A stretch of DNA of 64,000 bases from contig NC_054882.1 of NCBI RefSeq assembly GCF_018320785.1, forward strand, positions 555,501 through 619,500. Reading direction: 5' to 3'. Shown here piece by piece: positions 52,595-55,500 of the stretch. The notes beneath the pieces are model-generated. The model was not told the origin of the DNA and did no database searches. It worked only from the letters and a program-made list of their open reading frames with translations. The translations under genes were made by a program, and so were the position numbers. The stretch is from Cheilinus undulatus (Eukaryota; Chordata; Actinopteri; Labriformes; Labridae). Position 1 is the first letter of the stretch. Every line of letters starts with the position of its first letter.

Positions 52595-55500
52595 ATGGAG
52601 ACCGTGAAGGACCGACTGGCTGAGTTTGCTCTGGAGGCTCACGGTAAGGAGATCAATAATAACTACTGATCAATACTGCTGATATTAATATAACTACTGA
52701 TCAATACTGCTGATATTAATATAACTACTGATCAATACTGCTGATGTTAATAAAACTACTGATCAATACTGATGATATTAATATAACTACTGATCAATAC
52801 TGCTGATGTTAATATAACTACTGATCAATACTGCTGATATTAATATAACTACTGATCAATACTGCTGATGTTAATATAACTACTGATCAATACTGCTGAT
52901 GTTAATAAAACTACTGATCAATACTGCTGATGTTAATATAACTACTGATCAATACTGCTGATATTAATATAACTACTGATCAATACTGCTGATGTTAATA
53001 AAACTACTGATCAATACTGCTGATATTAATATAACTACTGATCAATACTGCTGATGTTAATATAACTACTGATCAATACTGCTGATATTAATATAACTAC
53101 TGATCAATACTGCTGATATTAATATAACTACTGATCAATACTGCTGATATTAATATAACTACTGATCAATACTGCTGATGTTAATATAACTACTGATCAA
53201 TACTGCTGATGTTAATATAACTACTGATCAATACTGCTGATATTAATATAACTACTGATCAATACTGCTGATGTTAATATAACTACTGATCAATACTGCT
53301 GATGTTAATATAACTACTGATCAATACTGCTGATGTTAATATAACTACTGATCAATACTGCTGATATTAATATAACTACTGATCAATACTGCTGATGTTA
53401 AATGATCGGTGATTGATTATCGATGACTCTCAGATCTCTGATTGATTATTGATGTCTCTCAGATCTCTGATTGATTATTGATGTCTCTCAGATCTCTGAT
53501 TGATTATTGATGTCTCTCAGATCTCTGATTGATTATTGATGTCTCTCAGATCTCTGATCGGTGATTGATTATTGATGTCTCTCAGATCTCTACCTGAACC
53601 ACTCGGTGCCGTACCTGGACGGGTCACCTGACCCTCTGGTCTTCTTCAGGGACTGGATCTCTGCCAACAAACCTGTGATCATCAGGAACGCCATCAGCCA
53701 TTGGCCAGCTCTGACCAGGTGGACCCCTGAGTACTTGAGGTGAGGAGGCCCCGCCCACAGGCCTGCTCTCTTCTTCTTATTTGGAATTTCCTGATAAAGA
53801 GTCGTGATCAGCTGTTTCCTGTGAGCAGGGGGAAGGTGGGGTCAAAGGTCATTAGCGTAGCCGTGACTCCTAATGGGTACGCAGATGCTGTCAGCGGGGA
53901 TCGATTCGTCATGCCTGAAGAGAGGAGGATGACCTTTTCTGATGTTCTGGACATCATTGAGAGGAAGGTGAGCTGCTGCCCCCTACAGGGCCACTGCAGT
54001 ACTACAACTGGTGGCACCAGGGTCCCACCCTCACAGCGTCAGTCCCGCCCTCACAGCGTCAGTCCCGCCCTCACAGCGTCAGTCCCGCCCTCACAGTGTC
54101 AGTCCCGCCCTCAGAGCGCCGCACCTGATATACACACAGACTGTGTGTATATCAGGTGCGGCGCGGTGGCGTGGTTTATTTACTTCCTGTCTGTGTGTAT
54201 ATCAGGTGCGGCGCCGTGGCGTGGTTTATTCACTTCCTGTCTGTGTGTATATCAGGTGCGGCGCCGTGGCGTGGTTTATTTACTTCCTGTCTGTGTGTAT
54301 TTCAGGTGCGGCGCCGTGGCGTGTTTTATGTCCAGAAGCAGTGCTCTAACCTTCTCGATGAGCTTCCTGAACTCACAGACGACATCGAGTCTCACGTACC
54401 CTGGATGAGCACGGCGCTTGGTGTGTCCAGGCTACTGAGCATGCTCAGATTGCACCGTTTCTTTATGAACCTAACATTTGTGTTTGTTTTGCTAGGACGG
54501 TTACCTGACGCTGTGAACTTCTGGCTCGGTGAGGACAGCGCCATAACGTCCAGTAAGACCCAACACTACTGCCATGTTTAAACAGATATCACATGGTTAT
54601 GATGTCATAAAGACACACCCACTCCCTCCCTCCTGCTGTCCCTAATCAGCCACAACATCAGTCTTTGCTGATTTTCAGCCATAACGTCAGGACCACTCCA
54701 GGTGGACTTACCATGAGCTAGCTGAGGGAGAAACCAAGACAACATGTAGAATCAGCCTCAGTCAACAACACTACATTACCCACAATCCCACAGTGTCACA
54801 GAATGTCTCCGATTGGTGGAGTGTGCATTTCAGCTGTGAGCTGTGACTAGTGAAGTTAACAGTCAGTGAATCTGTTGGCGGTAGCCGTAGAGCTCTGGGG
54901 ACCAGGACTACGGTAACCAGATACAGAAGTTTAGACCTGGATAAAGGACTCTGGGGGGTTAGAAAGTCTCTAACGGTGTTAAACATGGTCTGTGTGTGTG
55001 TCTGTGTCTGTGTGTGTGTGTGAGTGTGTTAATACTGGTGTGTATTTTTGTTGTGTATCAGTGCACAAAGACCACTATGAGAACCTCTACTGCGTCGTCT
55101 CTGGAGAGAAAAACTTCATCCTGCTGCCGCCAACGGACCGCCCCTTCATCCCCTACGGTAACCATAGCAACCAGCCTCTGACCACATTAGCCTGTTAGCT
55201 CCAGTCCCCCACCGTTAACCCCGTTCTTGTTTACAAGTTTATGTTTACATGTCTGTACATCTTTTCGTGTCGGTCAGGCGTCTTCCAGCCCGCCGTCTAC
55301 CACCAGAGAGATGACGGTGAGTTCGAGGTCGTGGATCAGAGTGGCTCTGAGAAGGTGCGTTCAGGTGTCTGTGGTTAATCTCCGCTGTCTCTGTACTGTA
55401 CTCACTTTGACTCCGCCCCCTCAGGTACCGTGGATTTCTGTGGACCCGCTGGATCCCGATCTGGACCGGTTCCCTCAATACGGCCGAGCTCATCCAATCA

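Follow-up and report, generated by a model that had tools for sequence, protein, structure and literature searches.

Exon 4 of jmjd7 is preceded by a row of 50-bp repeats in which its splice acceptor is copied three more times, and the upstream edge of this row carries an inverted copy of part of the repeat. The repeats are in register with the exon, and all three of the extra acceptors (decoys) score lower than the true site. We consider it likely that the row is a neutral minisatellite that contains a splice site: it would have begun in a short intron, with a tandem duplication that spanned its acceptor, and this would have been followed by growth through slippage and by one foldback due to template switching. 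A regulatory role for the row or the foldback is unproven, and a role in hiding the first decoy is unlikely.

Results

A row of acceptors at exon 4 of jmjd7

The window, by which we mean the whole 64,000-nucleotide stretch that we analyzed, lies about 0.6 Mb from one end of the 44.4-Mb contig C18 (C18:555501-619500). When exons 2-9 of jmjd7 are joined, the protein matches a solved JMJD7 chain (4qu2) with E = 5e-139 over 285 residues. Because this alignment is ungapped over the exon 3/4 junction, we take 54306 as the true start of exon 4 (Table 1). (Exon 1 is probably at 52595-52643, as recognized by eye.) ATG14 and a TBP-like gene, probably TBPL2, are on the opposite strand. Farther away, on the minus strand at 5400-19500, some reading frames resemble by eye a coiled-coil gene whose exons are numerous, short, and alike, and are set apart by large arrays.

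Table 1. Features of the splice-site rows in jmjd7. Positions are within the window, and the slash in AG/GT marks the splice junction.
Feature	Position	Strand	Remarks
jmjd7 intron 3	53968..54305	+	338 nt
jmjd7 exon 4	54306..54420	+	Start supported by protein alignment
True exon 4 acceptor AG/GT, exon start 54306	54304..54307	+	Ungapped JMJD7 alignment; acceptor score 9.05
50-bp tandem row, 3.8 copies	54141..54329	+	Unit is the last 26 bases of intron 3 and the first 24 bases of exon 4
Decoy 1 AG/GT, exon-side start 54156	54154..54157	+	Frame kept; open insert of 150 nt; low acceptor score (1.36)
Decoy 2 AG/GT, exon-side start 54206	54204..54207	+	Frame shift; acceptor 6.99, donor 7.82
Decoy 3 AG/GT, exon-side start 54256	54254..54257	+	Frame shift; acceptor 6.99, donor 7.82
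Inverted copy of decoy unit, 26 nt (left arm, loop base, and one more)	54116..54141	-	Exact reverse complement of parts of copies 2 and 3
Right arm of 24-bp inverted repeat, inside copy 1	54141..54164	+	Holds decoy 1
20-bp tandem row upstream of foldback, 4.8 copies	54022..54118	+	AGs scoring up to 5.63 as acceptors
29-bp minisatellite at exon 2 acceptor (53586)	53410..53591	+	Second row; five decoy acceptors
20-bp minisatellite, register from true exon 8 donor 55585	55585..56591	+	Third row; TRF array start 55614

An earlier, sequence-only reading of this DNA had reported three upstream copies of the exon 4 acceptor, and these are where it placed them, at 54156, 54206, and 54256 (with the true site at 54306). 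But it gave the copied part of the intron as 12 bases, and the actual length is 26 bases. The duplicated segment spans the intron-exon boundary, and the row reaches 24 bases into exon 4. The intronic part of the unit is complete in copies 2 and 3; copy 1 is missing the upstream part, with just 15 intronic bases (54141-54155), and has a private change at 54165.

The decoys share two differences from the true site. At position -5, all three have A and the true site has T; at exon position +19, all three have G and exon 4 has T. If the units are phased to start at TTAC, then a single base separates the first two complete units, and the last unit differs from both at these two further bases. When we searched the genome's DNA (1.17 Gb, 46 contigs), the best candidates listed included one full match of the 50-bp row and two partial matches on the reverse strand, which are the row's own inverted pieces.

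The effects of the decoys on the reading frame are as the sequence-only reading had described. Translation confirms that the 150-nt insert from decoy 1 is in frame and stop-free, and that with decoys 2 and 3, whose inserts are 100 and 50 nt long, the frame is shifted and stops follow.

An inverted copy at the edge of the row

The perfect 24-bp inverted repeat that had been noticed at the upstream edge (54116-54139 and 54141-54164, with a 1-base loop) is present at exactly those coordinates. The 26-nt inverted piece is an exact match to copies 2 and 3 (starting at 54189 and 54239) and matches copy 1 over 24 nt. This reverse-complement copy of a nearby segment exceeds chance: it is exact over 26 nt, while the longest inverted-repeat arms were 9-12 when the window was shuffled 10 times by dinucleotide blocks. 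The second-longest perfect inverted repeat in the window, with a loop of up to 20, has 11-bp arms.

We also considered that foldbacks might be common at the edges of arrays in this genome. We surveyed the window and 20 other stretches (264 kb, with one stretch containing 5000 N), which contain 113 non-overlapping arrays with a period of at least 10. After dropping 9 of the 226 flanks that were short or contained N, we had 217 usable 100-bp flanks. An inverted copy of the unit of at least 16 nt was found in just one of the 217 flanks, which is the exon 4 foldback itself, and in none of the 651 shuffled controls. On this sample, we reject the idea that array edges often carry foldbacks. Inverted matches of at least 11 nt were found in 7 of the 217 flanks and 1 of the 651 controls, so there is a slight excess of short matches; the second flank match (14 nt) is a self-palindromic piece.

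Two neighboring arrays at 20045-20429 and 20441-20512, with 33-bp and 14-bp units, have a common inverted match of 10-11 nt. This is possibly a weak second foldback, and it is too short to build on. The 264-kb sample also contains six further palindromes of other types, whose arms measure 14 to 35 bp. The longest of these (L010:6991-7060) is perfect and loop-free, with 35-bp arms, and it is built of two repeated smaller palindromes.

Since tandem and inverted repeats are error-prone, the number of repeats or the inverted arm might be an artefact of the reads or the assembly. We think this is very unlikely: the row and the foldback occupy only about 214 bp, the copies have base differences of their own, and there is no N in the window.

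The best-scoring decoys shift the reading frame

We scored acceptors (over 21 bases) and donors with approximate weight matrices. By these scores, the true acceptors of jmjd7 exons 2-9 range from 6.06 to 9.74, with 9.05 for exon 4. Decoys 2 and 3, which differ from the true exon 4 site only at -5 among the 21 scored bases, score 6.99. Just 5.5% of the 2109 AGs outside of tandem repeats score this high. The score of decoy 1 (1.36) is reached by 31% of these background AGs. By this measure, decoy 1 makes a poor acceptor, since its pyrimidine tract was lost to the foldback. Across the 46 bases that we examined, there is a single branch-point-like motif and no preceding AG for each of decoys 2 and 3 and for the true site; decoy 1 has extra AGs upstream, with the nearest at 54138-54139. 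The well-scoring decoys are the ones that shift the frame.

The predicted hairpin is unlikely to hide decoy 1 specifically

The sequence-only reading had proposed that decoy 1 would be hidden in an RNA hairpin. If so, the foldback might set the ratio of the long protein to the normal protein. The open 150-nt insert from decoy 1 fits this idea, as do predicted folds of short transcripts: if the prefix ends anywhere from 54165 to 54230, the left arm is paired chiefly with copy 1 (0.87-1.0). In prefixes from 54250 on, however, copies 1, 2, and 3 exchange as the arm's partner. These fold predictions are rough.

Intron 3 with 30 bases of exon 4 has a predicted fold of -148.6 kcal/mol (z = -3.63), and in the unconstrained minimum-energy fold, the left arm is paired with copy 3. 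If the arm is forced onto copy 1, copy 2, copy 3, or the true site, then the predicted energies are -148.1, -145.5, -148.6, or -138.6 kcal/mol. So copies 1 and 3 are nearly equivalent partners for the arm, and the true site is disfavored by about 10 kcal/mol, which is a consequence of one base.

Furthermore, decoy 1 is predicted to be more open with the arm than without it. In the fold that ends at 54335, the final base of the AG is unpaired at 0.58, 0.73, and 0.23 for decoys 1, 2, and 3, and at 0.01 for the true site. If the arm is left out, these values are 0.03, 0.74, 0.82, and 0.00. The values argue against the arm being protective in any way. (In the fold to 54500, the true site is unpaired at 0.39.) The folds, together with the low acceptor score of decoy 1, lead us to reject the idea that the hairpin specifically hides decoy 1. 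Since longer folds favor copy 3 or mix the copies, and since the high-scoring decoys are frame-shifting, it is highly improbable that the foldback tunes the ratio of two protein forms. What the folds do predict is that, at any moment, the arm can cap a single decoy, with the true site disfavored.

Could the copies act as both acceptors and donors?

All three decoys and the true site read AG/GTGCGG, with an AGGT core at every repeat boundary, and all six of the start-end combinations among these sites are GT...AG. Because every copy reads AG/GT, the insert from any of the decoys starts with GT and ends with AG. This raises another explanation for the row: a decoy (CAG/GTGCGG) might act first as an acceptor and then as a donor, with the retained 50, 100, or 150 nt being removed by a second splice to 54305. 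This would restore the normal mRNA, and the row might be tolerated, or even used, owing to that rescue.

The donor score is 7.82 at all four sites, which is higher than three of the seven true donors that we scored (exons 2-8, 4.95-10.63); only 1.2% of the 1711 plus-strand GTs outside of tandem repeats score this high, although these matrices, too, are approximate. According to Duan et al. 2024 (PMC10809524), a dual-specific site can serve as either acceptor or donor; in humans, AGGT sites of this type are used 3.1 times more often than expected and are linked to tandem repeats. The authors also suggest that repeat expansions with dual-specific sites are less harmful, as they can be spliced out.

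Nevertheless, we think that such self-correction is an unlikely explanation for the row. The row is intronic, so ordinary one-step splicing takes it out. Also, AG/GT is inherited, since exon 4 begins with GT, and therefore no selection is needed to explain it. And the row at exon 2 (see below) exists although its copies read AG/AT and would not allow this kind of rescue. Still, AG/GT is the sole feature that could make the exon 4 row more than debris.

Two other rows of splice sites in jmjd7

Three arrays are in register with a real splice site: the row at the exon 4 acceptor and the rows at the exon 2 acceptor and the exon 8 donor (Table 1). Of the five decoys at exon 2, four show no difference from the true site across the 21 scored bases, and each of the five would lead to a stop at the third codon. 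The exon 8 row has 26 further AG/GT donor-like copies of the form that we searched for; reading past the exon 8 donor into the intron gives a stop after 8 codons.

To count such rows, we considered arrays with a period of at least 10 and at least 2.5 copies, and 22 conserved exon blocks (jmjd7 exon 1 is not among these, nor are two or more exons of the TBP-like gene). An array lies within 35 bp of 3 of the 44 block ends: 3 of 16 for jmjd7, 0 of 20 for ATG14, and 0 of 8 for the TBP-like gene. As all three are in jmjd7, rows of splice sites are not a general feature of the window. At jmjd7 exon 1, an array begins about 15 bases inside the intron and the donor is not copied. Likewise, in the TBP-like gene (minus strand), a 24-bp array at 45557-47015 begins about 7 bases after an exon's donor, which is not copied.

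The surroundings are rich in repeats

Tandem repeats make up 55% of the window (34952 bases in 57 TRF rows). Single arrays of up to 5.4 kb lie inside its genes. Among 10-kb stretches sampled from the genome, minisatellites made up 2-70% of those at 600 kb (seven contigs) and 0-6% of those at 10 Mb (eight contigs). The stretches directly to the left and right of the window are 0% and 92% minisatellite.

Discussion

A probable neutral origin for the row

We propose that a 50-bp tandem duplication (26 intron and 24 exon bases) occurred over the acceptor of a short intron 3, that the intronic copy and the true copy then diverged at two bases, and that the intronic copy was amplified by slippage to give the three decoys. 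A single short template switch at the upstream edge would then have written the 26-nt inverted copy, which would have created the perfect hairpin and cost decoy 1 its pyrimidine tract. Today, the true acceptor would do nearly all of the splicing, and decoys 2 and 3 would give at most minor, frame-shifted transcripts.

We infer the order of events from the pattern of differences among the copies; slippage and template switching as the processes are likewise inferred. That two differences set all of the decoys apart from the true copy suggests duplication, then divergence, and then amplification. The arm is probably more recent than the difference at -5, because it has the decoy-type base there. 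Without the rows and the foldback, about 63 nt of intron 3 is left, so a 50-bp duplication would easily include a splice site. Template switching can make perfect stems in one event, as described in PMC8794818, and it would be the simplest known process for the foldback; that just one of the 217 flanks has an inverted unit copy of at least 16 nt is as expected for a single event.

A neutral origin by slippage and a foldback had also been suggested by the sequence-only reading, and near-identical units that end in a real exon support it. The repeat-rich surroundings and the damage to decoy 1 by the foldback also favor neutrality. Furthermore, the exon 2 row has only decoys that lead to stops, so a row need not benefit the protein to exist. 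On the other hand, neutral growth does not account for the clustering of three rows in jmjd7. The scores of decoys 2 and 3 fall among those of the true acceptors of jmjd7, and hence these two could be usable. And the predicted penalty of roughly 10 kcal/mol for pairing the arm with the true site might look purposeful, though it comes from one base.

Relation to known systems

The jmjd7 rows are a good natural substrate for a splicing test. They offer a natural setting in which to see how the spliceosome selects one acceptor from several that are nearly identical, since, over the 21 scored bases, decoys 2 and 3 of exon 4 differ from the true site at -5 only and most of the exon 2 decoys do not differ at all. 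Such a test would show how the growth of repeats at the ends of introns is tolerated and whether AG/GT copies rescue wrong choices. More speculatively, and we doubt it, a row of intronic dual-specific sites, made by a minisatellite, in which a wrong choice of acceptor is erasable by a second splice, and in which an arm can cap a decoy and disfavors the true acceptor because of a single base, would represent a naturally occurring step between the growth of repeats and the gain of an intron.

In the open-licence literature, we found no report of a minisatellite of acceptors with a foldback, among the matches listed, and no report of repeat arrays with alternative acceptors; for fish minisatellites, we found one paper, which deals with a different topic. 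There are several related systems, which we compare with jmjd7.

The human UBC gene has a tandem array of dual-specific AGGT sites (PMC10809524). As in UBC, each repeat boundary in the exon 4 row has AG/GT, and the repeat-length segments start with GT and end with AG. But the UBC repeats are coding and their use was shown in RNA, while the jmjd7 repeats are intronic, lie beside the true acceptor, and carry putative dual-specific sites. Also, the 50-nt unit of jmjd7 is not a multiple of 3.

In a potato RdRp gene, an intron was gained through a tandem duplication over an intron-exon boundary (PMC4974935). As in jmjd7, the duplicated piece joins the 3' end of an intron to the first part of the following exon, and it includes a branch-site-like motif, a pyrimidine tract, and the acceptor. 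The potato gene has one duplication and a proven new intron, while jmjd7 has three extra short copies and a foldback.

IFI6 contains a minisatellite of donors, and a 1995 study (cited in PMC4526556) reported the use of these donors in transcripts. In both genes, the units of a minisatellite carry splice sites, and the exon 8 row of jmjd7 is of the same donor kind. The exon 4 row carries acceptors instead.

Finally, in template-switch hairpins (PMC8794818), as in jmjd7, a perfect stem arises from a short reverse-complement copy located next to its source. The jmjd7 foldback differs in that its source is one of several tandem copies.
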